From Roseimicrobium gellanilyticum (GTDB lineage Bacteria; Verrucomicrobiota; Verrucomicrobiia; Verrucomicrobiales; Verrucomicrobiaceae): a stretch of 64,000 nt of DNA. The stretch is taken from positions 776,881-840,880 of the forward strand of contig NZ_QNRR01000002.1 in assembly GCF_003315205.1 (NCBI RefSeq), in the 5' to 3' direction. Positions 31,425 to 56,390 of this stretch are shown one piece after another. Position 1 is the first letter of the stretch. Each line of letters starts with the position of its first letter. A program made the position numbers and the translations under genes. The notes under the pieces are model-generated. The model saw nothing but the letters and a program-made list of their open reading frames with translations, made no database searches and was not told where the DNA came from.

Positions 31425-34400
31425 ATGAGTTCTGTAGTCGTGCCGCTGAACCCTTTCTCTGATCAGATTGTGACCTCCCCCCGCCGGGCAGAGCCCTCGG
31501 TGCAGGGGTTGAACGATCAGGCTCTTCAACGTCTTGTAGGCGCGTTTACGGCGATGGAATTGCCGCCGCGTCGTGGCGGCCGTATACACTTGGTGACTTC
31601 ACCCAGTGGTGGCTACGGCAAGTCGCACCTCACGGGCCGTCTCTATAGAGAACTGGGCCGCCGGGCCACTCAGATCTACGTGCGTCCCTTCAGCGACCCG
31701 GACACTCATTGGGTTTCGCTCCTGCACACCATCATCCAGGAGATGCTGGCTCCGGAATTCACCGGTGAGGAAGAGGAGGAAATCAGGGATCGTGGCACCT
31801 ACCCGCCCTCCCAGCTTGACGCCTTCGCCCACGGGGTCTTCGCCTCGGTGCTGATTTCGCTGCTCGACAGCGGAGAGTTTGAATACGGTGACCCGGAATT
31901 CGTGAAGGATCGTCTGCGGAACCGCACTTTCGTGAAATGGGATTTGGGTGATCCGCAGAGCAACTGGGGGCTCTGGGCCAGCGACATGCTACAACGGTAT
32001 GAAGAGTCTGAGAGCCGCGAAAGTCGCGTGCTGAAGTCTTTGAACCAGGCGACCGGCAATCACCTCGGCAGTACCACCCGCCCTCAGGCATGGCTCCGTG
32101 TGCTGCGCCGCTTTGCCGCCAATCGTGGTGCCACGGCACTGCGTGATCAGTGCCTCGAGTGGATGCGTGCGCGCACCCCGATGATCGAACTTGTGACGAA
32201 GCCCCTCGGCCTGCTGTCCACGGACGGTGTCGACTCGGAGGGAGGCATTGCAGCACGCAATTCCATGGCCCGCAGCCGTGTCTTGGACCTGCTCACGTTG
32301 GGCCGGCTTTTCCGTCCGTTCGTGATTTGCTTTGACCAGACGGAAGTATTTGGCCGCGTGCCCGGGCTGGCCCGCGCCTTCGGGGGCATGCTTTCTGACC
32401 TGGTGCAGTGTGAAGGAGCGCAGTTCACCGTGGTCACGGCGAATCAGGAGATCTGGAACACCCAGCTTTCCCCTTCCATAGAGGTCGCCGACCGTGACCG
32501 CATCCTTCCAGGCATTGAGCTCACCGGCTTGTCTCAGATGCAGGGCAGGGAACTTGCCCTGAATCGTCTGCGCCAGACCCGCCTTCCGGTCGAGCTCCAA
32601 GACCTCGTCCTGTCTCCTGACTGGGTGGCCTACCAATTTGGCAACGCGGTTCTGTCGCCCCGCGATTTCCTTCGTCGTTGCGAGCAGCGGTATGAAGAAA
32701 TCGTGCCTGCCGCGCTGGCTCAGCCGCCGCGGCCGAAGCTGATGTTGGGCGAGCTTTTCGCCCAGGAGCGCAATCAGATCGAAAGCGATCCACGCGAGTC
32801 CAAGGACTTCCGTGCCGATGCTCTGCGTTGGGCACTGCTCACCGTTCCCACAAAGGCTGGTGCCGATTTTGCGGCCTCGGCTTGCCGTACCGATGTGGCC
32901 TCCTACGTTGCCGATTGGAAGAGCAAGTCGGGAGCGCATCGCTACATCGTGTTGGAGCCAAGTTCTCACACACTCGTCTGGCAGGCCATTTTCCGAAAGG
33001 GAGCGGCTCTTCGGGCAGAAAGTCCCGACGCTGGTGTCGTCGCACTGCGCATCGAAGGTCAGGGGGCAGTGCCTCATGATAATCAGGCGGCACACGTGCA
33101 GTCTAACAAGGCGTCTGGGAAGGAAGCATTCCGTGTTTACACGCTGAACGCGGGAGATCTCTCTAAGGTGTATGCAGGCTGGGAACTTTACCTTCAGGCG
33201 TGCCAGGGAGACATTGAATACACTCCCGAGCAGGTGCTGGCTTATGTTTTCGACCGGCTCGTGCCGGTCTACAGCGCGATGCTGGGAGAGCCAGTAGCCT
33301 CCACGTTGCCTCCCGAACTTGGGACCGGCGTCACCACCGCAGCGCTCCAGTCGCATGAGGCACCTACGGTGATCATGCCGCGGAGTGCCATACAGCCGCC
33401 TGCCCCCGCTTCGGCCCCGCCTCCTCAGCCGATGGCAGCTCCAGCGTACGTCCCTCCATCTTTCCTTAGCTCTGGAGCCGGTTCCCTGGCAGGTGCGAAC
33501 ACCGCTCCCAGCCCGGCACCTGCCATTGCAGCTTCGGCAAATGGGCTCAAGGCGCCGGAAGAGACTGCGCCGATCCACAAGACGGCCATCAAGATCACAA
33601 CGCGTGTGGATGGGATTGTGCAGAGCCCGGCTCCGGGTGCTGCGCCCATGACCTTCCCACCGCCTTCAGGCTTGAAGCCTGTGGTGCCCATGTCGCCGCA
33701 GCCTCCGCTCGTCACGGCGCCGGCTCCTGCGCCAGCAGTGCCTTCTGCTCCAGCGCCCTCGCCAGCGATTGTCACGGCTCCTGCAGCGATGGCCCCTGCC
33801 GCTCCAGCTCCCGCAGCACCACCGCCTGCGCCAGCACCTGCACCCGCTCCTGCTCCTGCCTACATGGCTCCGGCAGCGGTAAGCCCGGACACCGACCGAA
33901 TCGTGATTGCGTCCGTGAGTGATATCCTCGGTGCACCTGCGGTACGACCGGATCTTCGCGGGCCTTTGCCAGCACCTGCCGCGCCTGCGCCTGCACCAGT
34001 TCCCGCTCCGGCCCCGGTTGCACCGCTCCCGGCTCCTGCTCCTCCACCTGCGCCTCCGCAGTCCTTTGCCCAGTTCATCCCACCACCGACGGGATTCTCC
34101 GCGCCTCCGAAGCCCGCACCTCCTCAGAGTGCGGAGCCCACGCAGGGCACGGTGGAACCCAAGCCTGGACAGAAGGCGTTTCCATCTGGAAGTCCCGCAG
34201 CGTCACCCTCTCCGGACACGGAGACTCAAGCACCGGCAGATGACGAGTCACCCAAGCCTGTCACGGCCGCTGCAGCGCCTGCTGCGGCCGCCCCCCTGCG
34301 TCCTACCGTTCCGTCGCCTGCGCGCCCCGGAGGAGAGATACCTCGTCCCGCCGGTGCCGTGCCTCCGCCGAATGCGGGAGCACCGACCAAGCCTTCCGCG

Positions 34401-35858
34401 CCACCTCCCGCGGTCGCAGCGAAGCCAGTGGCGCCAGCACCCGCTCCCAGCGGAACAGGTTCGCCCGTATCCCGCCAGAGTCCCGCTGCCGCCCCAGCTG
34501 TAGGCACCCCGAAACCCGGTGTGCCGGGCCGTCCCACCGGACCGACGCCAGGGGGAAGCGGCACCCCGGCCCCGCGTCCCGGAGCTCCCGGTGCCCCCAC
34601 GGCCAGAGGGCCCATGCCAGCTCAGCCGGGACCAGGTCCCCGTGGAGCTTCGGCACCCGCAGCACCGAGTGCCGCACCGACCTCTCCTGCAGAGGAGAAG
34701 GCAGGGTTCTTCGGACGCATCGGAAAAATGTTCTCCAAAAAGGAGGCCGTTCCAGTTCCGGCACCTGCGGCTCCTTCCGCACCGCGGCGTCCCATGCCGG
34801 CAGCGACCGCTGCCCGCCTTGCCGGAGCAGTTCCGCCAGGCGGTCCCCCAGGCCCCAAAGCTCCCGGTGCTCCAGCGCCAGCTCCTGCAGCCGCATCCAA
34901 GAGCACCGAACCCGTCGCTGTCGTTCCCTTAAGCGACAATGATGCACCGGAGGCTGCGGTCCGACCCGCCGAGGAGCCGCCAAAAAAATCGCTGACTGAG
35001 GCGTCACCCGCGAAAGACGCCTCAGTCGAAAATAAAACGAGCGCAACCAGCAGCCCTGAGACCACTCAGGTCAAGGAAACCGTGGACTCTGTGAAGACAG
35101 AGCCTGCGGTGGTGGTTGAGCAAGCGAAGATACCCGAGTCAATCCCTGCCCCTGTACCGGCGGCAGGGGTGCGGTCACTTGCACCTGTAGACGTGGCGCT
35201 TCCCGCGCCTGTGGTATCTGCACCAGTCGCAAAAGTGGCTCCTGCATCTCCTGCGGTACCGCCTTTCCTGGCGACGCCTGCTTCTGTGCGTCAGTATCCG
35301 ACGCAGCCATGGTCCTTCAGCAATGAAGCCATGACCCGGCTCGCTGAGCTGTTGCATCCCAAGAAGGGCAAAGATGCCAAGGGCAAGGCGAACGGCAATG
35401 GAAGCGCCAATGGCCATGCACACTCCAATGGGAAATCCCATGCGAATGGGCATGCCGATCCTCCGCACGAAGATGAAGAGCCCTTGTCCCAATCGCCATC
35501 ACATGAGGCGATGGTGTGGCTGGCTCGGTGCCTGCGCGAGTACCATCAGGAACGTGATGCTCCCGAGGGCAGCCGTCGTGTTGCCGTTTTTGCCAAGGAG
35601 GAGATGCATGTCGCCGAACCTCTCATTCCTGCCGCCGTGATGTCTGAAGTGGCCAGTCCACCCAGTCTGGAAAAGGTGATGCGCGACTTGGTAAAGGCCC
35701 GCCGTCTCATCAGCTATCCCATGCTCGCCATGGAGTTGGAGAAGCGGCTGGCACGTCCCGTTTCCATGGATGAAGCGAGTGCCGCGGCGAAAGCCTCCGG
35801 TGACATCCATGTCTACGGCGAAGGCAACAGCGCTGGCTATCTCTGGCAGGGAAGGTGA
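31425..35858 (+). CDS. Large P-loop ATPase with long Pro/Ala-rich disordered region
   Basis: The 1,477-residue protein has an N-terminal P-loop ATPase. HLVTSPSGGYGKSHLTGRL (residues 55-73) is a Walker A with Pro60 where Gly or Ala is usual. FVICFDQTEVF (299-309) is a Walker B ending in Asp304-Gln305, and FTVVTANQEIW resembles sensor 1. A second folded part runs to about residue 640. Residues about 650-1290 are Pro/Ala-rich and disordered, broken by a conserved-looking FFGRIGKMFSKKE (from residue 1095). The C-terminus has a Gly/Asn/His/Lys-rich stretch, then a helical domain of about 125 residues ending GYLWQGR. ATP-driven action with partner binding by the disordered region is inferred. It is a single-gene unit of unknown function. 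Confidence 0.8.
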   Translation: MSSVVVPLNPFSDQIVTSPRRAEPSVQGLNDQALQRLVGAFTAMELPPRRGGRIHLVTSPSGGYGKSHLTGRLYRELGRRATQIYVRPFSDPDTHWVSLLHTIIQEMLAPEFTGEEEEEIRDRGTYPPSQLDAFAHGVFASVLISLLDSGEFEYGDPEFVKDRLRNRTFVKWDLGDPQSNWGLWASDMLQRYEESESRESRVLKSLNQATGNHLGSTTRPQAWLRVLRRFAANRGATALRDQCLEWMRARTPMIELVTKPLGLLSTDGVDSEGGIAARNSMARSRVLDLLTLGRLFRPFVICFDQTEVFGRVPGLARAFGGMLSDLVQCEGAQFTVVTANQEIWNTQLSPSIEVADRDRILPGIELTGLSQMQGRELALNRLRQTRLPVELQDLVLSPDWVAYQFGNAVLSPRDFLRRCEQRYEEIVPAALAQPPRPKLMLGELFAQERNQIESDPRESKDFRADALRWALLTVPTKAGADFAASACRTDVASYVADWKSKSGAHRYIVLEPSSHTLVWQAIFRKGAALRAESPDAGVVALRIEGQGAVPHDNQAAHVQSNKASGKEAFRVYTLNAGDLSKVYAGWELYLQACQGDIEYTPEQVLAYVFDRLVPVYSAMLGEPVASTLPPELGTGVTTAALQSHEAPTVIMPRSAIQPPAPASAPPPQPMAAPAYVPPSFLSSGAGSLAGANTAPSPAPAIAASANGLKAPEETAPIHKTAIKITTRVDGIVQSPAPGAAPMTFPPPSGLKPVVPMSPQPPLVTAPAPAPAVPSAPAPSPAIVTAPAAMAPAAPAPAAPPPAPAPAPAPAPAYMAPAAVSPDTDRIVIASVSDILGAPAVRPDLRGPLPAPAAPAPAPVPAPAPVAPLPAPAPPPAPPQSFAQFIPPPTGFSAPPKPAPPQSAEPTQGTVEPKPGQKAFPSGSPAASPSPDTETQAPADDESPKPVTAAAAPAAAAPLRPTVPSPARPGGEIPRPAGAVPPPNAGAPTKPSAPPPAVAAKPVAPAPAPSGTGSPVSRQSPAAAPAVGTPKPGVPGRPTGPTPGGSGTPAPRPGAPGAPTARGPMPAQPGPGPRGASAPAAPSAAPTSPAEEKAGFFGRIGKMFSKKEAVPVPAPAAPSAPRRPMPAATAARLAGAVPPGGPPGPKAPGAPAPAPAAASKSTEPVAVVPLSDNDAPEAAVRPAEEPPKKSLTEASPAKDASVENKTSATSSPETTQVKETVDSVKTEPAVVVEQAKIPESIPAPVPAAGVRSLAPVDVALPAPVVSAPVAKVAPASPAVPPFLATPASVRQYPTQPWSFSNEAMTRLAELLHPKKGKDAKGKANGNGSANGHAHSNGKSHANGHADPPHEDEEPLSQSPSHEAMVWLARCLREYHQERDAPEGSRRVAVFAKEEMHVAEPLIPAAVMSEVASPPSLEKVMRDLVKARRLISYPMLAMELEKRLARPVSMDEASAAAKASGDIHVYGEGNSAGYLWQGR

Positions 35859-37379: not shown

Positions 37380-38369
37380 TCAATTCTTCACCAGCAATCC
37401 CGTGAAAGGATCCGTGGCCATCTCCACCTTGCCCACCAGTTCTTCCAAGGCGCCCTCCAGAGAGGCGAGGCAATCTACGAGGCGCACATCGGGGATACGA
37501 ACAGCCCGGTGATAACCAAAGGCGGCACGACCACCCATGAGCAAGGCGACAGAGGACGGAAGAAGCTGCCGCAGCTTGGTGATCTCCGCGGGCACATTGG
37601 GGTCATCCGACGGATACACGAGGCTCAGGGCCACGGCACGTGCCCGGCGGGTCTGCACGCACGCGGCGATTTCTTCCGCGGCCAGGGAGGGGCCAAGATA
37701 GGTCGCACGCCAGCCCAGATCCCGGGCGACTGCTGAAGCAAGAAGGGCACCCACTTCATGGCATTGCCCGCTGGGAGTGGTCACCACAATCTCAGGCGCA
37801 TCAGGAGGTGGCTGGTAGCACCGTGCCCCGATGGCAAGAAAATCACGGACCACATTAGTGGCAAGGTGCTCGTGAGATACCCGGAGCTCTCCCTTGCGCC
37901 ATGCTTCTCCGACCTCATACACCAGCGGCGAAACAATTCGCAGCAAGGTGGTCCGCGCTCCATAGCGCAGGCAGGCCTCCTCCAGGAGCTTGGTCAGCGT
38001 GAAACAGTCCAACTGTTTCACTGCATCCATGCACCTTGCCTGACATTGATCGGGCGTGGCGTGGGTGAGGTCTGGCACCGGCGCTGGAGCATCGATGCGC
38101 TCGGGGAGTTCCTTCTTGTGCAGGTGGTAGAGCTCATCCAGGCACAGGCAGGCAATCTGGCTGATGCGATGACCACATCCCGTGAGCTGTTTCAGAAGCC
38201 GGAGACGTTCGATTTCCTCATCCGAGTAGAGACGCCGGTTGGAGTCCGTGCGCTTGCAGCAGACCAGTCCATAGCGCCTCTCCCAAACGCGGATCACGTG
38301 CGCCGTGAGACCGGTGCGGTGGCACACGACCTTGATGGGATGGCGCAGTTCACGAGAGGGGGCGGACAT
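37380..38369 (-). CDS. MerR-type regulator with B12-binding domain (CarH/LitR-like photoreceptor)
   Basis: The 329-residue protein has an N-terminal MerR winged helix (IKVVCHRTGLTAHVIRVWERRYGLV, residues 12-36; RRLYSDEEIERLRLL) and a four-helix plus Rossmann cobalamin-binding module. The helical cap holds Trp157-x9-Glu167-His168 (in EAWRKGELRVSHEHLA), the signature of light-sensing CarH proteins. The Rossmann part has GQCHEVG with His204 as probable cobalt ligand, although Cys replaces the usual acidic residue two before it, and TYLGPSLAAEEI. CarH binds adenosylcobalamin, represses DNA as a tetramer in the dark and falls apart in light. It is divergent from the SpmAB-like gene. No carotenoid genes are in the window. 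Confidence 0.9.
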   Translation of the reverse strand: MSAPSRELRHPIKVVCHRTGLTAHVIRVWERRYGLVCCKRTDSNRRLYSDEEIERLRLLKQLTGCGHRISQIACLCLDELYHLHKKELPERIDAPAPVPDLTHATPDQCQARCMDAVKQLDCFTLTKLLEEACLRYGARTTLLRIVSPLVYEVGEAWRKGELRVSHEHLATNVVRDFLAIGARCYQPPPDAPEIVVTTPSGQCHEVGALLASAVARDLGWRATYLGPSLAAEEIAACVQTRRARAVALSLVYPSDDPNVPAEITKLRQLLPSSVALLMGGRAAFGYHRAVRIPDVRLVDCLASLEGALEELVGKVEMATDPFTGLLVKN

Positions 38370-38556
38370 GAATACAGAGAGGGTCTACAATGGGATGGTC
38401 AGATTACGTGCGAAGGTGACGGAACGGTTGGCTGGAAGCGGACAATTCAAAAGAACGGGACGAAAAAAGCAAGCCTGTACGAACCTTGATGCAATCTACA
38501 CCGCTGCGGCCATGCCGCACTTGCCAAGTGCTGGCATCCTGTTAAAGCACGGCTTC

Positions 38557-40005
38557 ATGTTGAATTACGTCTGGTCGTTCCTCATCGTCACAGGAATCAT
38601 CGCTGCGGCGTTGTTTGGGAGGCTGGACGCGATGGTGACGGGGGTGTTCGACATCTGCATCAAGGTAGTCATGGTGATTGCGCTTCCGCTGGCCGGCACC
38701 ATCATGCTCTGGCTGGGCATCATGAGGGTGATGGAGAAGGGGGGAATGATGAATGTCGTGGCGAAGCTTCTCTCGCCGCTTTTGAGGATTCTCTTCCCCG
38801 AGGTGCCCAAAGATCATCCCGCGATGGGCGCCATCACGATGAACATCGCCGCGAACATGCTGGGACTGGGAAATGCAGCCACACCCATGGGTCTCAAGGC
38901 CATGACCCATCTCCAGGAACTGAATCCAAACAAGCAAAGCGCCAGCAACGCGATGTGCATGTTCCTCGCCCTGAACACGGCGGGATTTACCCTCCTGCCG
39001 ATGACCTCGCTCAACTACCTGAATGCCGGTGGCGTGCAAAATCCGCAGTCCATCATTCTGCCTACCATCCTGGCCACCATCTGTTCGACGACTGCGGGGA
39101 TCCTGGCGGCCATGTTTTTTCAACGCCTTCCCATGTTTCGGCCACGGCCTGATGATGTGGTAGCCACGGCGCCCACGACTTCCGATGCCCAACCCGCAGC
39201 GAGCAAATCTGGAGAAGCATCTGCAAAGCCCTACCGCATGCCTCCCGTCCGTGCCATTCTGGTCTACGGTGCTGCCTCGGCATTCATGTTCGGAGCGCTT
39301 CTGGAGTTCCTTCCTGAACAAAGAGCGAGAGTGCTGGAGGCCACGGGGCTTCAAAAGCTGCTGACAGAAGCCGACTCGGACGCCAAGGCTGCTGCGGCAA
39401 GGGAAAAGGAACTGAAAGCGCAGGCACCCGTCGTGGTGGATCAACCCAAGAAGGAGGAGTCCGTGTGGCGGAAGCAACTGCTCAAGCTGTCCACGCTGAC
39501 GATCCCCCTGATCCTGATTGGCGTGGTGCTATGGGCCCTGGCTCGAGGGATTCCCGTCTTCGAGGAAATGGCGGAGGGCGCGAAGGAAGGATTTGGAGTG
39601 GTGACGAGGATCATGCCGTTCCTCCTCGTGATGTTTGTCGCCATTGTCTGCTTCCGGGATTCGGGAGCTCTCATGCTGATCGAGTATGCCTTGCGTCCCG
39701 TGCTCTCGGTCATCGGCATGCCCGTGGATCTGTTCCCACTTGCCATCATGCGTCCCCTCAGTGGCTCTGGGTCATCGGGGTTCCTGAATGAGATCATCTT
39801 CAATCCGGCCTCAACGGATCATTTGCGTTATACTGCGGCCATTCTCTTTGGTTCCACGGAGACAACTTTCTACGTGCTGGCCGTGTACTTCGGCAGTGTG
39901 AGCATCCGTCGCACACGGCATGCTCTGGCGGCCGGACTCTGCGCAGACGCCGTGGGGATGACCGCCGCCATTGCACTTGGCTGGCTGCTCTTCGCCAGGG
40001 TCTAG
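38557..40005 (+). CDS. SpmA-SpmB fusion (nucleoside-recognition/gate domain membrane protein)
   Basis: The 482-residue membrane protein fuses homologues of spore maturation proteins A and B. The N-terminal half has MLNYVWSFLIVTGIIAAALFG and the gate-domain stretch NIAANMLGLGNAATPMGLKAM. A charged linker with a coiled-coil-like part (EADSDAKAAAAREKELKAQ) leads to the C-terminal half, with LTIPLILIGVVLWALARG, SGALMLIEYALRPV, MRPLSGSGSSGFLNEII and GSTETTFYVLAVYFGSV. In Bacillus the two proteins act in spore core dehydration; similar fused forms occur in non-sporulating bacteria, where they are uncharacterised transporters. The start at 38557 is chosen because the upstream 84 codons look non-coding. 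Confidence 0.9.
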   Translation: MLNYVWSFLIVTGIIAAALFGRLDAMVTGVFDICIKVVMVIALPLAGTIMLWLGIMRVMEKGGMMNVVAKLLSPLLRILFPEVPKDHPAMGAITMNIAANMLGLGNAATPMGLKAMTHLQELNPNKQSASNAMCMFLALNTAGFTLLPMTSLNYLNAGGVQNPQSIILPTILATICSTTAGILAAMFFQRLPMFRPRPDDVVATAPTTSDAQPAASKSGEASAKPYRMPPVRAILVYGAASAFMFGALLEFLPEQRARVLEATGLQKLLTEADSDAKAAAAREKELKAQAPVVVDQPKKEESVWRKQLLKLSTLTIPLILIGVVLWALARGIPVFEEMAEGAKEGFGVVTRIMPFLLVMFVAIVCFRDSGALMLIEYALRPVLSVIGMPVDLFPLAIMRPLSGSGSSGFLNEIIFNPASTDHLRYTAAILFGSTETTFYVLAVYFGSVSIRRTRHALAAGLCADAVGMTAAIALGWLLFARV

Positions 40006-40048: not shown

Positions 40049-40858
40049 CTACGGTGTCGTGCCAGGCTGTCGGGGTGCGGGGACCTTGGGACGAGATAGG
40101 ATGACGCTCCGGATCATGAGCTTTGGCGTGACCGCCTCCGACTGAAGGCGGAGATTTCCGGCTGCCACATCCTTCTCCACCGTGACGGTGCCAAATCGGA
40201 AGATACGGAAGTCTTTTACGGATCCCGTGGAGCGATCAGCCGGAAGTGTGAAGGGATGTGCGACTCCTGCCAGGCTCAGCGTGAGCTTCTCAGGGGCCTC
40301 CATCGGTGCACAGGCAAAGACCATCGCCACGTCATAAGTGCCCGCGGCGAGTTTCTCCACGGTCCAGTCGAGCGAACCCAGAGGCGCGGCGCTTCCAGCC
40401 GCAAGCGTGTTGCCATTGGCCTTGGCGGCCTGAAGGGTCAGCACCGTGCGTGGAGCGTTTGGTTCCGACGCAGGCTTGGCAGGTTCTGGAGTTGTCGCTT
40501 TCGCGGGATCAGCGGGCGCCCCTTCGCCGGTGGCTACAAAAGGGAAGGTGCCCGTCGTAGACATGGCCTGCCGAATGCGTGCAATCTCTGCATCCACCGC
40601 AAGGGATTCTGCGGCACGACCGCTCGCCGTCATTTTGTTCTTGAGGAGCTCGAGCTCACGCAGGTAGTCCTGCATGACCGGGCCGTGAATCGGGCGGAGA
40701 TTCGTGGCATACGTTTTCTCCATCATTTCCAACCGGGCTTCAGGAGAGACAAAGGAATCGAGGAGCGGTGCCTGCGGCAGTTGTGCGGTCAGGTTGCCAG
40801 CCAGCCAGAGCGACAGACTGCAAAAGCCTATGGAAACACTGATGAAGCGGACAGTCAT
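40049..40858 (-). CDS. Exported protein: coiled coil plus beta-sandwich module (paralogue 3 of 3)
   Basis: The 269-residue protein has a signal peptide (MTVRFISVSIGFCSLSLWLAGNLTAQ), a helical segment (ARLEMMEKTYATNLRPIHGPVMQDYLRELELLKNKM, about residues 42-78), a Pro/Ala linker, and a C-terminal beta-sandwich of about 130 residues. That module starts RTVLTLQAAKANGNTLAAG and includes WTVEKLAAGTYDVAMVFACA. The same pattern (an A-x-G strand, then W and AGxYDV) appears in both upstream genes. Its ATG overlaps the stop of the preceding gene in an ATGA, so the genes are coupled. The fold recalls carbohydrate-binding or fucosidase C-terminal modules, but no catalytic residues are visible. Confidence 0.8.
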   Translation of the reverse strand: MTVRFISVSIGFCSLSLWLAGNLTAQLPQAPLLDSFVSPEARLEMMEKTYATNLRPIHGPVMQDYLRELELLKNKMTASGRAAESLAVDAEIARIRQAMSTTGTFPFVATGEGAPADPAKATTPEPAKPASEPNAPRTVLTLQAAKANGNTLAAGSAAPLGSLDWTVEKLAAGTYDVAMVFACAPMEAPEKLTLSLAGVAHPFTLPADRSTGSVKDFRIFRFGTVTVEKDVAAGNLRLQSEAVTPKLMIRSVILSRPKVPAPRQPGTTP

Positions 40859-42450
40859 GTACCAGGAGTGGCAGGGGTGGCATCTGAGGCGCGCGACCAG
40901 GCTCCAGGTGGGATGTGGCGCGATTTGGCTGCCGCTTCGCGTTCACGCAACACGGTGAGGGCTGCATCCTCATGCAGCTTCGCGGCACGGGCCCTCGCGA
41001 CGGGCTGATGCACCATGGCAAGTCCATTGTCCACAAGCGCACCTGCAAAATCGCCCAACGCTTCTGTCTGCACGGACACCAGCAGAGCTCCATCAGGATC
41101 CTTCAGCCCGCGGGTAACAAGCCGGAGCGGTTTCTCTTTAAGATACTCGGCAGTGAAGTCGCGTGCCATGATCCCAATGGCAGTGATGTCTTCATCATTG
41201 AGGCCGAAGTATTTGGCGGGGTCCTGTCCAGAGGCTCCGGGAGTGACAGGGCCGGGCAGGGGACAGCTGACCCACATGAGACGCACAGGAAAAGTTTCTC
41301 CATTGCATGCCACCATGAATCGGTCCCCGGTATTCTCCGGAGCGGCCACGTAGATAGCATCACGCATTTCATGCATCCCATCCGCAAGAGCCGCAGTGGC
41401 TACCGGACGGTTGCGGTCACGAAGCTGTAGCAAGGAGCGAGGATTATCCCCCAGGCGCTCCACACGCTTCACCTCGTTCTGCAAATCTTCCACCGCCTCG
41501 GCATTTCTGGCCAGGGTGGTGGCGAGGGAAGAAAGCTTTCCCGTGTAGTCCACCGAGATGGGCATGAGTTTTTGCCTCAGGCGCTCAAGATGATCCTGCT
41601 TCAGTTTCGTCAGCTCATCCACTTGTGGCAGAGGTTGGCCATTTTCATCGAGCGCGGGAGCCGCAGCTTCGGCGGTCACCGGTTTCGCGGGAGTGAGGCG
41701 AATCTCCTTGAGATGCATCACCCCCCCTTCACCTTTTGCCTTTGTGATTTTCAGCGCGAATGTCGCGTTGGTTCGCGTCAATTGGATGGCTGGCAGGGTG
41801 ACTGTGGAGAACTCTCCCCAACCGCCCGTACTGCTCACGGTTCCGGTGCGGCGATTGGCGGCGGCTCCGGACAAACTAGAGTCCTCGTAGAACTCAAAGT
41901 CACCTCCCGTGGTGAGGTCCGGAGCAGCGAGGTATGGGTTGGGGCGGCTGGGAGGATCCCCAACATCGGCAACACCATAGGTGATGACGACATCGTAGCT
42001 GCCGGCAGCAATGCGTGACACGCCCCAGCTTGCGACATTGCCCACGGCCTTCCATCCCACCAGCACGTCCTTGGCCCGGTCATGGCTTACGGAGCCGCCG
42101 ACACGGGCCTCTGCTGCCCGCAAGATAATGACATTTGAAATGGCGGAGCCTTCCAACGCGCTGCTGTACAAGGCGGCGAGAGTTTCACGCCGTTGCTGCG
42201 CCTTGAGCGCCAGCTCGTAGTCGCCAGCGACACCAGCCTCACGCGCCAGGGCGGCCAGCGCTTTGGCAAACTGCTCGGAAAGCAATTGGGAACCCGTGAG
42301 AGCGCGAGTCATGAACTGCTGCCGCTTTTGGATCAGATCCGGAGGTTCGGTGGGTGCTGTCGCCGGTGCTGGTGCGGGTGTCGTCTGAGACGCGACGTTG
42401 CCAGCCAGCAGGAGCGTGAGGAAAATCGAAGCTGACCAGCGGGCAATCAT
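40855..42450 (-). CDS. Exported protein: coiled coil, beta-sandwich and nuclease-fold domain (paralogue 2 of 3)
   Basis: The 531-residue protein has a signal peptide (MIARWSASIFLTLLLAGNVASQ). A coiled coil (residues 40-95) precedes a beta-sandwich (about 105-255: ILRAAEARVGGSVSHD, GWKAVGNVASWGVSRIAAGSYDVVITYG). A second coiled coil (about 280-335) leads to a C-terminal domain (about 365-482) resembling the staphylococcal nuclease fold: MVACNGETFPVRLMWVSCPLPG, ARDFTAEYLKEKPLRLVTRG, ALVDNGLAMVHQ. Arg390 matches a nuclease active-site Arg, but the Asp and Glu that should follow are Ser395 and Pro397, so nuclease activity is unlikely. It starts 13 bases after paralogue 1 and overlaps paralogue 3 by ATGA. 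Confidence 0.8.
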   Translation of the reverse strand: MIARWSASIFLTLLLAGNVASQTTPAPAPATAPTEPPDLIQKRQQFMTRALTGSQLLSEQFAKALAALAREAGVAGDYELALKAQQRRETLAALYSSALEGSAISNVIILRAAEARVGGSVSHDRAKDVLVGWKAVGNVASWGVSRIAAGSYDVVITYGVADVGDPPSRPNPYLAAPDLTTGGDFEFYEDSSLSGAAANRRTGTVSSTGGWGEFSTVTLPAIQLTRTNATFALKITKAKGEGGVMHLKEIRLTPAKPVTAEAAAPALDENGQPLPQVDELTKLKQDHLERLRQKLMPISVDYTGKLSSLATTLARNAEAVEDLQNEVKRVERLGDNPRSLLQLRDRNRPVATAALADGMHEMRDAIYVAAPENTGDRFMVACNGETFPVRLMWVSCPLPGPVTPGASGQDPAKYFGLNDEDITAIGIMARDFTAEYLKEKPLRLVTRGLKDPDGALLVSVQTEALGDFAGALVDNGLAMVHQPVARARAAKLHEDAALTVLREREAAAKSRHIPPGAWSRASDATPATPGT

Positions 42451-42463
42451 GGGGAAGGGCAGT

Positions 42464-43207
42464 TCAGCGCGCGGCAGGGACCAGTACCACGGAGTAAATG
42501 CGCAGGCTGGCGCATTTGTCTGCGGGACCTATGGTCAGAGTCAGGGAACCTGCACCATCACGTACCCGCAAGGTTCCCAAAGATTGAGTCACCACCTTGT
42601 CTTTGGCCGGCTTGAGATCGGACGTGAGTGTGTAGAAGCTCTCCTTCAGTGAGGCGCTGGCATTGCTTCCCTGATGATTCAACGAGACCTCATAGCCACC
42701 TGCAGGGAGATTGGGCAGCTTCCATGTAGCGCTGGCTCCGGTGGCGTTCCAGCCGGTCAGTGACTTGTCGCCTGCATCCAAACGTACGCCTGAGAGGGCA
42801 GCCTCGGAAAGATTCAGCTCGATGCGCTCCGGGGCACGCGAGGCCCCCACGGCAGTGGCACGCTGGCCAAGCGCAGCCAGCTCCTTTTCCATGATCGTGA
42901 TCTCCTGCTCAATGCGCTGGCGCTCGTCGCGTGCCTTGATGGCGCCGGAGTAGTCCTGGGCAGAGGCATATTTTTTCTCCAACGCCAGCAGTGCCTCACG
43001 CTGAGCTTTCTGCTCAGGCAGGGCGGCGGTGAGCAGTTCCCTGCGGAGCTGGGCCTTCAGCGAGCGCAAATCCGGTCCGGCATCCTGTGCCCCACTGGTC
43101 AGCGCAGGGGGCAGAGCGAGCATGAGCATGCACCATCCCTTGGCGAGCCATCTGCCACAGGCACGGAGTCGGGATGGGGTACTGGATGAAGCGGTTGCGA
43201 AGGACAA
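42464..43207 (-). CDS. Exported protein: coiled coil plus beta-sandwich module (paralogue 1 of 3)
   Basis: The frame begins at a TTG (43207) and gives 247 residues; internal ATGs at 43129 and 43123 would remove the basic n-region of the apparent signal (RACGRWLAKGWCMLMLALPPALTSGA). A long coiled coil follows (LRSLKAQLRRELLTAALPEQ through RIEQEITIMEKELAALGQ, residues about 48-116), then the beta-sandwich (RIELNLSEAALSGVRLDAGD, GWNATGASATWKLPNLPAGGYEVSLNHQG, SLTLTIGPADKCASLRIYSVVL). It is the first gene of a three-gene operon of related exported proteins. The family is not one I can name; carbohydrate or cell-wall binding is a guess. Confidence 0.75.
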   Translation of the reverse strand: MSFATASSSTPSRLRACGRWLAKGWCMLMLALPPALTSGAQDAGPDLRSLKAQLRRELLTAALPEQKAQREALLALEKKYASAQDYSGAIKARDERQRIEQEITIMEKELAALGQRATAVGASRAPERIELNLSEAALSGVRLDAGDKSLTGWNATGASATWKLPNLPAGGYEVSLNHQGSNASASLKESFYTLTSDLKPAKDKVVTQSLGTLRVRDGAGSLTLTIGPADKCASLRIYSVVLVPAAR

Positions 43208-43276: not shown

Positions 43277-44245
43277 TTAACCAGTACGTCGCGAGACGAC
43301 CGCTTCCATCTCCAAGTCCAGTTCCGCGCGGCAGATGTCTGCCTTGAGGAACATCACCTCTTCGCCGGTGAGGCCCGTTTCTTCGGCGAGCCATTCCTGC
43401 ACCAGGGGCAGGGCCTCCGGGTGACGGAGGTACACCTTGAAATCGCGCATAACCAGCTTCGACTGGGCGTTCCGCGACTTCGGCTTGAGCATTTGCGCCA
43501 TGCCCATGCGCTCAAACATGATTTGGATGTTGTGCATGGTGGTGCGGTACTGGGTGTGCCAGTCGCCCTCACCCACGCTGCGGTGGCCCTCAATGCTGGC
43601 CGTGCCACTCAGGTAGCCGACGGTTTCCCGGGAACACTTCACCAAGACCGCACGGGCAAAACTCGGCGGGCGGGGACCGTAGTCGGCCGGGTAGTGGTAG
43701 GCGGGCACTTGGGAGGGGTTCTCCAGATACTGGGGGTGCGTCTTTCCCGCGACAAAAAGCACGGCGAACTGCCCACCCTCGGCTCCCACTGCGGATGCAG
43801 CGGGCATGAAGGAACGCAAGTCCCGACCGAATGACTCCTCGAAAGCCAGCCAGCGGCCGATATTGAACTGACGGTAGCGCTCGAGTCCGTGGTCCAACTC
43901 GTTGATTTTGGGGACGTAATTCCAAGCGCGGTGCAGGTGCATGCCTCGGGAGGAGCAGGCATTCAGCACCTCCCGATAAATCTGGTGCACGGGTTCCTCC
44001 ATGCGGGTGGAGACATCAATGGTGGCCGCCCCGATGAGGTGGGTTTCATTCTCGAGCGTGATAAGATTGCCCGAGCGCCCGGCGCGCCCCTTGGGCAACG
44101 CCACGGTTTCGGTTTTGCGGCCTGCCAGCCAAGGCACTCCCAAATGCAACACGCCCGCACCCTCGCCCCCCGTAATCTGGGAAACTTTCTCTCCGAAATG
44201 AATCTGAATTTGCGGCTCGTCGGTGACTGCGGCGGGCATGGGCAT
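43277..44245 (-). CDS. FkbO/Hyg5-type chorismatase
   Basis: The 322-residue protein matches the chorismatase family (FkbO, Hyg5, XanB2), which hydrolyse chorismate to dihydroxycyclohexadiene or hydroxybenzoate products. Typical stretches are HLHRAWNYVPKIN, LERYRQFNIGRW, VPAYHYPADYGPRPPSFARA, GTASIEGHRSVGEGDWHTQYR, KVYLRHPE and FLKADICRAELDLEMEAVV. No signal peptide. The ATG at 44245 (MPMPAAV) is preferred; 44284 is also possible. It is divergent from an MMPL exporter gene with 87 bases between the starts. Which product type it makes (XanB2-like 3-hydroxybenzoate, or another) cannot be decided by eye. Confidence 0.87.
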   Translation of the reverse strand: MPMPAAVTDEPQIQIHFGEKVSQITGGEGAGVLHLGVPWLAGRKTETVALPKGRAGRSGNLITLENETHLIGAATIDVSTRMEEPVHQIYREVLNACSSRGMHLHRAWNYVPKINELDHGLERYRQFNIGRWLAFEESFGRDLRSFMPAASAVGAEGGQFAVLFVAGKTHPQYLENPSQVPAYHYPADYGPRPPSFARAVLVKCSRETVGYLSGTASIEGHRSVGEGDWHTQYRTTMHNIQIMFERMGMAQMLKPKSRNAQSKLVMRDFKVYLRHPEALPLVQEWLAEETGLTGEEVMFLKADICRAELDLEMEAVVSRRTG

Positions 44246-44332
44246 CGGGTTGTTTTGGCGGCTTGATATGGGAATGTCAAACATTTGCGTACTGGGATGG
44301 ACGGGCGAAAGGGGCTGTCTATTCTGAGTCAG

Positions 44333-46786
44333 ATGTCTTTTTCCGGGAAACACACGCCGGTCATTCTAGTTGTGGTTGTTGCTGCAGTCGCTTTTGTGAC
44401 GGCGGGACTTTCACGATTGCGGTTGGACCCGGATGTGCTCTCGACCTTGCCGCCGGATCTGCCGGAGGTCGGGGCGTTGCGGACCCTCCGCGACGCCTTT
44501 GCAGGAGGGGGGGATCTGGTGGTGTCGGTGGAGTCCCTGGACGCGGAAACGGCCAAGGCTGCTGTGACCTCGCTGGCAGGCCGGTTCCGCGAGGCTGCCC
44601 ACTTGTGCCGGACCGTTCAGGAAGGGGACTCCATGGAGAATTCCGAGACCGCCGGGGCGCTGCTGGCTTGGGTCCTGCAAAACGGCAACCCCCTGAAACT
44701 GGAGGCGGTCCGAAGGCGGCTTGAGGGGACCGACGGCCCCCAGAAGCACCTCGAACGCGTGCTGGAGGAACTGGCCAGCTCCCCTGATCCCGGAGTGGTG
44801 CAGCGCTGGCAGTATGATCCGCTGGGGCTGTTGGGGGGAGTGGACCTCGGCCAGATGATGGCGTTTCAGGAAGCGGGGCTCGGAGCCTCCTCGGCAGATG
44901 GCACCTTCCGCATGCTCTTTCTTACTCCCAAGGAGAAACTCTCGGGCTATCGGAAGGCAGAAGGATGGCTGAAGGAGGTAGACCAAGTGGTCGCTGCGTG
45001 GCGCAGTTCCGATGCCAAGTTTTCCGATGTCGTGGTGCGGATGACGGGCGAACCCGCGTTCATGGCGGAGATCGGCGGCGGCATCGAACGTGACCTGAGT
45101 GGAACGCTTGGGCTGGGCACGGCGCTGATTGCGGCGCTCTACTGGTTCATGCACCGGAGGTGGAAGCCGCTCTTCTGGATCCTGCTGCTGATGGGGGTGA
45201 GCATTCTGTTCTCCCTATCCCTGGCGGGTTGGACCGTGGGCAAGCTCACGGTGATGAGCCTGGGCTTTGCCTCCATCGTGCTGGGCATCGTGGTGGACTA
45301 TGGCGTTCTGATCCTGCAGGAGGCTCGGACGCATCCGGAGCTCGATGCGCAGGGAGTGCGTCGGCTCGCCATGCCGGGCATCCTCGCGGGTGCCGCCACG
45401 AATTCAGCGGTATTCTTTGCGCTGCTCTTCATCAGCCTGCCGGGTCTTGCGGAACTGGGACTGCTGGTGGGCATGAATGTGGTGACCGGAGCGCTGGTGA
45501 TGCTGACCTTCATGCCGTATGTGGCGGTGCGGCATCGGGTGCTGGATGGCGATCATGAACGAACGCGAGGCGGAATGGTGACGCATCGTTATGCGATCGT
45601 GGGGACGGTATTGATGGCTGCGGGTGTGGCGACAGTGCTACTGTGGCGTGGCCTCCCCCCCTTTGAAGGTGGCGCTGCAGTGTTGCGCCCCACGCATAGC
45701 AAAGCGGCGGAGAACTGGGACCTCGTACAACAACGGCTGGGGAAAGCAGACGTCGCCACCGTGCCTGTGGTGCTGACGTTTGAAGATGCGGCCGGGGCTC
45801 AGAGCAAAGCTGCTGAGGTCGGCGCTTTGCTCGCGAAGCTACGGCTTGAAGGGGTGATTGAGGGAATTGCTCTGCCTTCAACCTTCTTGCCGCACGAGGG
45901 GTATCAAAAGTCGAACGAGCCTGGGATTGGGTGGTTCGTGAAACATCGCCGCGTTCTGGAAGATGCAGTCCTGAAGGAAGGTTTCACCGAGGAAACGCTG
46001 CTCCTCTTCCGAGGCGTGATGTCGGCATGGGAAGAATGGTTGGGAGAGATCGCGGCAAATCCCAAGATGCGCCCCGCTGCAACTCCAGCTGCAGGGGCGG
46101 ATGACTTGCTGCGGAGGTTTGTCGGCAGGGAGGAAACAACCGGAGTGGGGAGAGATGGCAGCAAGCTCGTCGCTCTTGGTTTTGTGCAGATGAAAGGGCA
46201 GCCCGGGAATCCTGATCCCGTGAAGCTTGCGGAACTGGATGCGAAGCTGTCCTCACAAGCAGGCGTACGTCTCGCGGCCTGGGAGTCGCTGGGTCAGGCC
46301 CTGTCTGAGCGGGTGCAGCAGGACATCACGCGCGAGATGCTGCCCATCATCGCCATCCTTCTCGTCATGCTCTCCCTGGCCTATCGGAACTGGCGGGATC
46401 TGTTGCTCTCCGTGTTGATTCTGGCCTTGGGCGTAGCAGCGCTCATGGCGACGATGGCATTGGTGGGCAAGTCATGGAATCTGGCGAGCCTCGCGGCGCT
46501 GCCGTTGCTGTTGGGAACGGGCATCGACTATGGCATCCACACGATTCTCGCCATGAAGCGTGATGGCAATGATGTCCGCCGTGTGCGCCACAGCACTGGT
46601 CGCGCCGTGTTCTTCTGCGGAGCCACGACCGTCATTGGCTTCATGAGTCTGGTGGTGGCGGACAATCGTGGCGTGGCCAGCCTGGGTACTGCGTGCGCAG
46701 CAGGAACCGTCTGGATTCTGTTGCTCGTACTATGGTTGCTGCCGCATTGGAGGTGCTGGATTTTTGGACGTACGGTGCAAAAATGA
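44333..46786 (+). CDS. MMPL/RND-family exporter
   Basis: The 817-residue membrane protein has the RND layout of a single polypeptide. One N-terminal helix (VILVVVVAAVAFVTAG) is followed by a periplasmic domain and a bundle of about five helices (LGTALIAALYWFM, PLFWILLLMGVSILFSLSLAG, LTVMSLGFASIVLGIVVDYGVLILQEA). A second periplasmic domain and bundle follow (MLPIIAILLVMLSL, LGTGIDYGIHTILAMKR). The Asp-Tyr-Gly pairs in the fourth helices are the likely proton relay. Similar 'predicted exporters' (COG4258) are standard members of aryl-polyene and xanthomonadin clusters. It diverges from the chorismatase gene and overlaps the following small gene by ATGA. Confidence 0.93.
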   Translation: MSFSGKHTPVILVVVVAAVAFVTAGLSRLRLDPDVLSTLPPDLPEVGALRTLRDAFAGGGDLVVSVESLDAETAKAAVTSLAGRFREAAHLCRTVQEGDSMENSETAGALLAWVLQNGNPLKLEAVRRRLEGTDGPQKHLERVLEELASSPDPGVVQRWQYDPLGLLGGVDLGQMMAFQEAGLGASSADGTFRMLFLTPKEKLSGYRKAEGWLKEVDQVVAAWRSSDAKFSDVVVRMTGEPAFMAEIGGGIERDLSGTLGLGTALIAALYWFMHRRWKPLFWILLLMGVSILFSLSLAGWTVGKLTVMSLGFASIVLGIVVDYGVLILQEARTHPELDAQGVRRLAMPGILAGAATNSAVFFALLFISLPGLAELGLLVGMNVVTGALVMLTFMPYVAVRHRVLDGDHERTRGGMVTHRYAIVGTVLMAAGVATVLLWRGLPPFEGGAAVLRPTHSKAAENWDLVQQRLGKADVATVPVVLTFEDAAGAQSKAAEVGALLAKLRLEGVIEGIALPSTFLPHEGYQKSNEPGIGWFVKHRRVLEDAVLKEGFTEETLLLFRGVMSAWEEWLGEIAANPKMRPAATPAAGADDLLRRFVGREETTGVGRDGSKLVALGFVQMKGQPGNPDPVKLAELDAKLSSQAGVRLAAWESLGQALSERVQQDITREMLPIIAILLVMLSLAYRNWRDLLLSVLILALGVAALMATMALVGKSWNLASLAALPLLLGTGIDYGIHTILAMKRDGNDVRRVRHSTGRAVFFCGATTVIGFMSLVVADNRGVASLGTACAAGTVWILLLVLWLLPHWRCWIFGRTVQK

Positions 46787-50388: not shown

Positions 50389-50546
50389 CCGTCGGTACTG
50401 CCCCGTTCTGCCACCGCGCTCAAGTAAAATTCATGTTTTGCTGTCACGGGGAACGAAATCGCAACAACACTGTCATACAGAATGCGCATGACCGGCTCGT
50501 CGTCCGACGACAGCTCTGCTATGCTCTTCTGAAGCAACCTTCCCCC

Positions 50547-53500
50547 ATGAAAGCCCGTGCCTTCTTGCTGACCCTGCTGGGTCTTTTAACCGTTGCGAGC
50601 CCCGTGCCCGCTGCTGAACTCGTCATTGATAACGAAGAGCTCCTTCCCTCCAGCACGCTGGATTTGCGATTCGACAGCGCGATGATCGGAAAGGAGAAGG
50701 TGGGCACCGTGGAGAAAATTTCGCCACTGGTGGGTGAGCCCGCCATCGAAGGCGAATTCAAGTGGACCAGCACGCGCAGCGGCCAGTTCCATTTCACCAA
50801 GGCGCCTGCCATCGCCACCACCTATTCCTTCACTCTCCGCAAAGGATTGAAGGATGCTACAGGCAAACCGGTGGCCGTTGAGGAACTTGGCGAGTATGAG
50901 ACGGAAGCCTTCCGCGTCGCGGATGACTATAAAGAGTATCCCTACAGCTTCGGCGAGTCTGCGCGCCGCACGCCTTACTTCATCCTGCAGTTCTCTGACG
51001 CCGTGGACGCTGCCGCCGCCGGGCGACAGTTCCACTTCGTGAGTCGCTTTGGCACCCAGCCGATCGCGGCGAAGGTGCGCTATGCGACGGGGAAGGATTT
51101 CAAGAAGCGCTACGGCACGGATCTGGTCCCCACTTGGGAAGAGCAGGGCAAAGGAGTGAAGCCCTCCGTGAAGGATGATGAAACCCGCCCGAATGCCCTG
51201 ATTGTGCAGACCGGTGAACCACTGCCTCCCGGTGTGGACTGGACCCTGGTGATGCCGGCTGACTTCACCAATGCAGGTGGCAATGCCATCCTCGGCGAAG
51301 AAGCCCGCCATGAATGGGGCTCCGTGCAGGTGCTGGCTTTCAAAACCGTGAGCACGGAGAACCGCTTCGACGGTCCTCATTCCATCGTGCTGAACTTCAA
51401 CAAGAACTTGCGCAATGGAAACCTCTCGGCGGCAGATCTTGAGAAGGCCCGTGTGGAAGCAGCGAAGTTTGTGACGGTGGAGCCTGCCGTGGCGGACATG
51501 AAGGTGAATCTGGGATGGTCTTCACTGGAGATGGAAGGCAGTTTCGCCCTCGGCACGCCTTACACGGTCACGGTAAATACAGGCCTGCCCGGGGCAGATG
51601 ACCTGCCGCTGGAGAATCCCGTGCGCGAAACCGTGACCTTCAAGGCGAGTCCGGTGTTCGTATCCACCAGTGCTGGTGCAAGTACGCAGATCTCGTCTGG
51701 CAAGGCATTGCTGGACATCTATGGCGCAAACTTCAAGGAAATGCGCATCCGCGCGAAGCAGCTCAGCGATGGGGAGCTGATCGCGGCGCGTGCCATCTAT
51801 GAAAAGGAGTACGAAAACTTCGACTACAGCGAGAAGAACAAGACTCCTGCACGCGAGCGCCTGACGCCCTTTGACAAGCTTCCGGGCAAGCAGGTGTTTG
51901 AAAAGGTCATCACGAACAACCAGCCGCTGGAGCGTGGCTCGCTCCATGAGATCAACTGGCACGAGGTGCTGGGTCAGACCAAGGCGGCCCCTATCTTCTT
52001 GGAAATCGAGGCAACTCCACAAGACGGTGCACCTGTCGGCGCCATCTTGAACCGCAGCATCGTGGAGTTCACGGACATCGGCCTGATGGTGAAGAACACG
52101 GGTGAAGAAGCGCTCGTGTATGCATTCTCCCTGAAGACGGGCCAGGCCCTGCCGGGTGTGCAACTTACCTTCGCGGATGAGGAGCGAGCCTTTCTGAAGT
52201 CTGCTCAAACGGATGACAAAGGCATGGCCATGGTACCAAGCCAGAATGCCGCCTGGGTGCTGGCAAAAAATGGCGACGACTGCACCGCAGCAATCTGCAG
52301 TGGTAGGGAAAATCGCATCGGACTCTGGGGTCACAACATCAACATCGGGTGGGGTGACCCATGGAAGGCGAAAAACGAAACCTTCATTTTCTCTGACCGT
52401 CCCGTGTACAAGCCCGGCGAGAAGGCGAACGTGAAAGCCATCACCCGCATGCGCACCGGTGATGCGCTGACCCTTGGCCAGCCTACCAAGGCCAAGCTCA
52501 CCATGACCGACCCGCGCAATCGTGAGGTGCTGAACAAGGAAATCACCTTCACGGCGAATGGCACCTGGAGCGACCAGATTGCGCTGCCTGAAGGCGCGGT
52601 GGGCTGGTACAGCCTGAATATCCGCTTCCGCGAACCCGAGGCCGGTGAAGATGAGTATGAAACCGGTTCGCTGGTGAACCTCGCACTGCGTGTGGACGAG
52701 TACAAGCCGAACACCTTTGAGGTGAAGCTGAATGGGGAGAAGTTCCAGGCCAGCAAGGATCGCATCAAGGTGCCGCTCAAGGCGAACTACTACATGGGCA
52801 AGGCACTCTCCTCGGCGAAAGCCACGTGGAGTGCGAACCTTTCCAGCGTATACATGCCGCCGGATGAATTTGCGGAGTACCACTTCGGCGATGCCCCCTC
52901 CTGGTGGCACTATGGCAAAGATCGCGATGATGAGACGGCTTCCGAGGAAGACGAGGATGAATCCAGCAACTGGGGCGCTCATGGTGAACTCACGCTGAAT
53001 GACGACGGCACTGCGACCATCGAACTGCCACCTCCGCCAGCGCACAAGGAAGCGCTGCCGCAGACCATTTCCGTCTATGCGGATGTGACGGATGTGAATC
53101 AGCAGACCATCGCTGCGAATACGGAATTCAAGATTCCCGGCGCGGACTTCATCGTGGGCGCGAAGACCCATGCCTGGAGTGGCACAGCGGGCAAGGAATT
53201 CTCCATCGACCTCGTGGCGATCACACCGCAGGGCAAGGGCTTCACCTCTTCGGTTCCGGTCGATGTGAAGATCGAGCGCCAGGCGTGGAACACCGTGCGT
53301 GTGCAAGGCGCAGGTGGCGCCATGACAGCGAAGAACCAGAGTGTGTTGCTCGAAGAGCTGAAATCCCGTGTGGAACTTAAGAGCCAGAACGGTGGCGCGG
53401 CTGCGGCGGAAGTGAAGTTCACCCCAAAGGCTGGCGGCACCTATTTCATCACCTCGACGGCGACGGACGCCAGCGGCAAGACGGTGCTTTCCCGCCTGGG

Positions 53501-56333: not shown

Positions 56334-56390
56334 CGGAAAACATCCGGCCAGGGAGTGACACTCATTCCCTGGCCTCACCAGCATCCCATC

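Follow-up and report, generated by a model that had tools for sequence, protein, structure and literature searches.

Our analysis of the window (the whole stretch of 64,000 nucleotides from Roseimicrobium gellanilyticum) points to a three-gene operon, A-B-C, whose exported products probably function together as one assembly and whose middle protein, B, carries one helical hairpin of the type found in A and one of the type found in C. The three genes are as follows.

42464..43207, minus strand: gene A, 247 aa, predicted to be exported, with an A-type hairpin at about residues 44-125 and a CBM6/35-type sandwich at residues 126-247.
40855..42450, minus strand: gene B, 531 aa, predicted to be exported, with an A-type hairpin, a sandwich, a C-type hairpin and an SNase-fold domain; the candidate hub.
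40049..40858, minus strand: gene C, 269 aa, predicted to be exported, with a C-type hairpin at residues 37-104 and a CBM6/35-type sandwich at residues 136-258.

The minus-strand layout described in an earlier, sequence-only reading of this DNA, with a 13-base gap from A to B and a 4-base ATGA overlap from B to C, agrees with the coordinates and strand, and ATGA overlaps were common across the A-B-C loci compared. The listed start codon of gene A is TTG, and scanning for promoters turned up no promoter-like site on the strand of the operon. The window comes from a genome of 7.93 Mb. The signal peptides proposed for each product were also recovered: A, B and C each begin with an export signal whose cleavage site is of the Ala-x-Ala/Gln type, and a hydrophobic stretch was present in 35/36 A, 33/34 B and 33/33 C proteins, with lipobox-like motifs in just one or two members of each family. 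The three proteins are thus predicted to be exported, a call made from sequence features and a crude hydrophobic-stretch test rather than a dedicated predictor. Judged by dN/dS values of 0.09-0.18 against a congener, a comparison in which dS is near saturation, A, B and C are under purifying selection.

To establish how the three families are related, profiles made from their alignments (36 A, 34 B and 33 C proteins) were matched against one another, giving 99.5% for A-B (E 1e-22), 97.9% for A-C (E 4e-13) and 98.0% for B-C (E 3e-13). The sandwich blocks alone, aligned pairwise with hhalign, matched at 96.7-98.8%, and their scores of 98, 59 and 62 stood well above the column-shuffled maxima of 16-20. 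These results uphold the earlier view of a single unnamed family that diverged through duplication. The signature then said to be common to the three proteins survived in part: A and B conserve the Ala-x-x-x-Gly spacing, but it is not maintained across the C family. The domains of B, from its N-terminus to its C-terminus, are listed here.

42142..42345, minus strand: B hairpin 1, residues 36-103, homologous to the A hairpin.
41680..42141, minus strand: B sandwich, residues 104-257, with a CBM6/35 fold.
41401..41631, minus strand: B hairpin 2, residues 274-350 (277-347 in the AlphaFold model), homologous to the C hairpin.
40888..41385, minus strand: B SNase-fold domain, residues 356-521 (360-521 in the AlphaFold model), with catalytic residues lost.

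In hhalign comparisons, B hairpin 1 matched the A hairpin at 96.8% (score 51, shuffled maximum 13) and B hairpin 2 matched the C hairpin at 97.4% (score 52, shuffled maximum 15), whereas the A and C hairpins matched each other weakly (33%) and B hairpin 1 did not match the C hairpin (0.5%). By sequence comparison there are therefore two hairpin types, one in A and first in B, the other in C and second in B, so that B holds one of each neighbor's type. Because its second hairpin is homologous to that of C, B combines A-type and C-type parts and is not merely a copy with a nuclease added. The earlier statement that only one member had gained a nuclease-fold domain was right about where the fold is, but it missed the second hairpin of B and the loss of catalytic residues. 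The AlphaFold model of B (pLDDT 81) shows a hairpin, the sandwich, a second hairpin and the SNase fold, their relative placement being unreliable (pTM 0.40), and that of C (pLDDT 80) a hairpin and the sandwich. With these two models, and with A assigned its fold through homology to B over both parts rather than from a model of its own, the coiled coil and beta-sandwich expected in each product are accounted for. Sequence searches in which the hairpin formed part of longer queries found no solved relative of it.

Gene A was found in 58/59 sampled Verrucomicrobiaceae genomes, covering 11/11 genera, and gene C likewise in 58/59. When the match coordinates of A and C were read together manually, the two lay about 2.6 kb or less apart in 47/59 genomes, with B between them in the loci opened, in agreement with the conserved gene order that had been anticipated. 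The other 12 comprise nine genomes with A and C on different contigs, two in which the locus is broken by contig ends and one in which A was not detected. In at least seven of the nine split genomes (G024, G028, G031, G034, G043, G048 and G050) A is well inside its contig, so the gene has truly relocated; B and C were adjacent in 6/6 of the relocated-A genomes whose B-C locus was fetched (these seven minus G031). The genes flanking A-B-C vary between genera. Named carriers of the set include Prosthecobacter, Brevifollis gellanilyticus and Verrucomicrobium, and on these names the sampled family was assigned to Verrucomicrobiaceae. No intact A-B-C was found in the roughly 280 genomes sampled from the phylum's other families, where isolated domains only were observed. 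Other phyla were covered through one A motif, and scanning 84,980 species with it gave 41 loci, every one under a verrucomicrobial title; the one that bears the name Akkermansia muciniphila is probably a mislabelled bin. From these searches the three-gene set looks limited to Verrucomicrobiaceae among the sampled groups. The profile search that the sequence-only reading had suggested thus returned a set that is near-universal within this family and, as a unit, absent from the other sampled groups of the phylum.

In the model that we favor, the operon would give rise to one hetero-oligomeric assembly in the periplasm or at the cell surface of Verrucomicrobiaceae. B would be the hub or scaffold that links A and C through related hairpins, the A hairpin packing with the A-type hairpin of B and the C hairpin with its C-type hairpin. 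Such a complex would present three heads of CBM6/35 type with a single pseudo-nuclease domain in their midst; these heads may bind a glycan of the envelope or of the extracellular space, and the inactive SNase fold would be a binding or structural module and not an enzyme. The complex, the pairing rule and the glycan ligand are inferred. In favor of the model are near-complete co-occurrence, linkage in 47/59 genomes despite changing flanks, the hairpin-type matches, the B-C adjacency kept where A has moved, the mirror-tree signal between C and B, the folds, the low dN/dS and the sandwich relatives in GH29 fucosidases. Against it are a mirror-tree analysis without signal between the A hairpin and B hairpin 1, the occurrence of similar hairpins elsewhere, a missing Glu-Ala-Glu motif and the lack of a pathway neighbor that points to a glycan. 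Taken as a whole, the explanation by a hetero-complex that has B at its center, CBM-type heads and an SNase fold without catalysis has in our judgment about an even chance of being correct. In its most far-reaching form, a self-assembling, Verrucomicrobiaceae-specific envelope machine whose order of assembly would be set by the duplicated hairpins (A pairing with B hairpin 1 and C with B hairpin 2) and which would have turned an ancestral thermonuclease into a non-catalytic part, the model is rather doubtful.

The mirror-tree partial correlations were computed over 19 thinned genomes and are to be read with the shared ancestry of these genomes in mind. The C hairpin gave a partial r of 0.34 with B hairpin 2 (10-90% range, 0.24-0.46) and of 0.47 with the B SNase domain, whereas the A hairpin gave no signal with B hairpin 1 (0.05); the remaining pairs of A or C with B hairpins were also at 0.05 each. 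This is suggestive only; it favors B-C over A-B and agrees with the stable adjacency of B and C. A contact between B and C through their hairpins is, in our view, evenly poised, and one between A and B is put forward tentatively.

The sandwich can be named by its fold. In structural comparisons of the models, the B sandwich matched CBM6 2cdp (Z 16.1, 125 residues, 2.3 A) and CBM35 2w1w (E 3.6e-7), and the C sandwich matched CBM6/35/36 modules with Z up to 13.1, so the predicted domain is of CBM6/CBM35 type. With modules of this type (2cdp, 2w1w, 4qb2, 2vzp) A-B-C share the jelly-roll fold and a Trp strand followed by a Gly-x-Tyr strand; unlike them, they lack Glu-Ala-Glu, have no glycoside hydrolase attached and fall below the cut-offs of the Pfam CBM models. 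A had no Pfam match at all, CBM models included; C reached 16 bits against CBM_35_2, under its cut-off of 23; and a single B member matched CBM_35 at a sub-threshold E of 0.12. NCBIfam gave no match above cut-off for A, B or C, and PDB sequence searches with the three profiles gave no significant match, only weak ones to CBM35 and thermonuclease. The Glu-Ala-Glu motif in the first strand is the calcium site of CBM6/CBM35. At position -4 of the motif Glu occurs in 1/36 A and is not among the residues listed in the other two families; B and C are rich in Ala/Ser at position -2, where A often has Asp/Glu. Since this motif is missing, sugar binding is uncertain.

One could propose that the sandwiches are structural protein-protein modules and that the complex builds a cell-envelope structure with no glycan, a reading that differs from our model in the ligand only. 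The absence of Glu-Ala-Glu from all three families favors it, as do the invariant residues of A, B and C, which are mostly of core type (Trp, Tyr, Gly), and CBM-like jelly rolls serve as non-sugar modules in other proteins too. This reading is somewhat unlikely, as a Glu is invariant in the sandwiches of A (E189) and B (E189), and alpha-L-fucosidase accessory domains are among the closest sequence relatives outside the family. One of those nearest to the A sandwich is the C-terminal module of verrucomicrobial GH29 fucosidases (L142, L145; E ~1e-8 for L142), with a weak Pfam match of the DUF5077 or CBM_6-like kind. It differs from A-B-C in being an accessory domain of an enzyme, with neither hairpin nor operon partners. 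No pathway neighbor pointing to a glycan lies beside A-B-C, and a glycan as the ligand of the heads stays a tentative proposal.

The hairpin is also found outside A-B-C. Several exported verrucomicrobial proteins (L059 8449-9165, L141, L146 and L147) have, like A-B-C, an N-terminal export signal and a similar hairpin, but carry different heads and lie outside any A-B-C set, so a hairpin need not imply pairing. One of them (L059 8449-9165, plus strand) is encoded, in one genome, a few kb away from the A-B-C genes. In another family, L146 (G290:C100 4800-6690) has three tandem hairpin matches on one contig, and the protein read there has a DUF7402-like head, unlike A-B-C. If the hairpin is a stalk or a homodimer handle, A, B and C could be three co-expressed exported paralogues with separate roles, such as independent periplasmic binding proteins or adhesins that each recognize a different ligand. 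The hairpins with other heads would fit this, and so would the genomes in which A is unlinked from B-C and none of the three is lost. That B combines both hairpin types, that the set is nearly always complete and that most genomes preserve the gene order A-B-C all argue against separate action, which we consider unlikely.

In structure the C-terminal domain of B resembles staphylococcal nuclease (Z 16.4; 133 residues and 26% identity to 1ii3), although its match to Pfam SNase is sub-threshold. The whole OB fold is shared with staphylococcal nuclease, or thermonuclease (PF00565); the B domain differs in being fused behind a hairpin-sandwich-hairpin and in its catalytic residues. Glu43 is present in 0/34 B proteins, Asp40 in 6/34, Arg35 in 25/34 and Asp21 in 26/34, and position 87 has no matching Arg in any of the five B proteins that were aligned with free-standing relatives. 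Those verrucomicrobial relatives (n=17) retain Asp21, Asp40 and Glu43 in 17/17 and Arg35 and Arg87 in 16/17. Outside Verrucomicrobiaceae, the B profile matched mostly SNase domains alone. An active secreted nuclease held at the surface for DNA scavenging or defence, as the well-matched fold and the frequent Asp21 and Arg35 might suggest, was rejected on the lost catalytic residues and is very improbable. The nuclease fold of B looks dead; it appears to be retained for some role, since the SNase part has a dN/dS of ~0.12 against the congener (dS near saturation).

Literature searches found no description of the A, B or C proteins. This near-universal, family-limited gene set has no dedicated Pfam or NCBIfam family, and it uses known folds only, combined in a way that our searches did not encounter elsewhere. 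The hairpin types offer a testable rule for binding partners, and B would be an example of a secreted thermonuclease that has apparently given up its enzymatic role. According to PMC12283558, transposon sequencing and targeted deletion are available in Verrucomicrobium spinosum. This species belongs to the same family, Verrucomicrobiaceae, which makes the question of A-B-C open to laboratory testing.

Four neighboring genes lie close to the operon.

43277-44353, minus strand: FkbO/Hyg5-like chorismatase, directly upstream of A-B-C.
44285-46786, plus strand: MMPL/HpnN-like transporter, divergent from the chorismatase and overlapping it.
37380-38369, minus strand: CarH-like MerR regulator with B12-binding domains.
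38305-40005, plus strand: Gate-domain (nucleoside recognition) membrane protein, divergent from the regulator and overlapping it.

The chorismatase is the next upstream gene in several genera, and it is accompanied by the transporter beside A-B-C in several genera, which could suggest that A-B-C belongs to an aryl-polyene or other chorismate-derived pathway. However, genus g8 as well as g5, g7 and g10 retain A-B-C without a close chorismatase orthologue (distant matches occur in some g8 only), and in G017 the chorismatase is located elsewhere. As it is missing from many A-B-C genomes, it is not a required partner; membership of such a pathway was rejected on this distribution and is highly unlikely. 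The regulator and Gate-domain pair stays adjacent to C in loci L041, L044 and L048.

Farther away in the window, a 1477-aa ORF (31425-35858, plus strand) had no Pfam match at 1e-3 and contains an N-terminal SGGYGKSHL P-loop-like stretch. On the plus strand, a bacterial alpha-2-macroglobulin gene (50433-56333) is followed by one for a penicillin-binding protein (56355-58739) that has a transglycosylase, a transpeptidase and a BiPBP_C domain; gene pairs of this kind are known.
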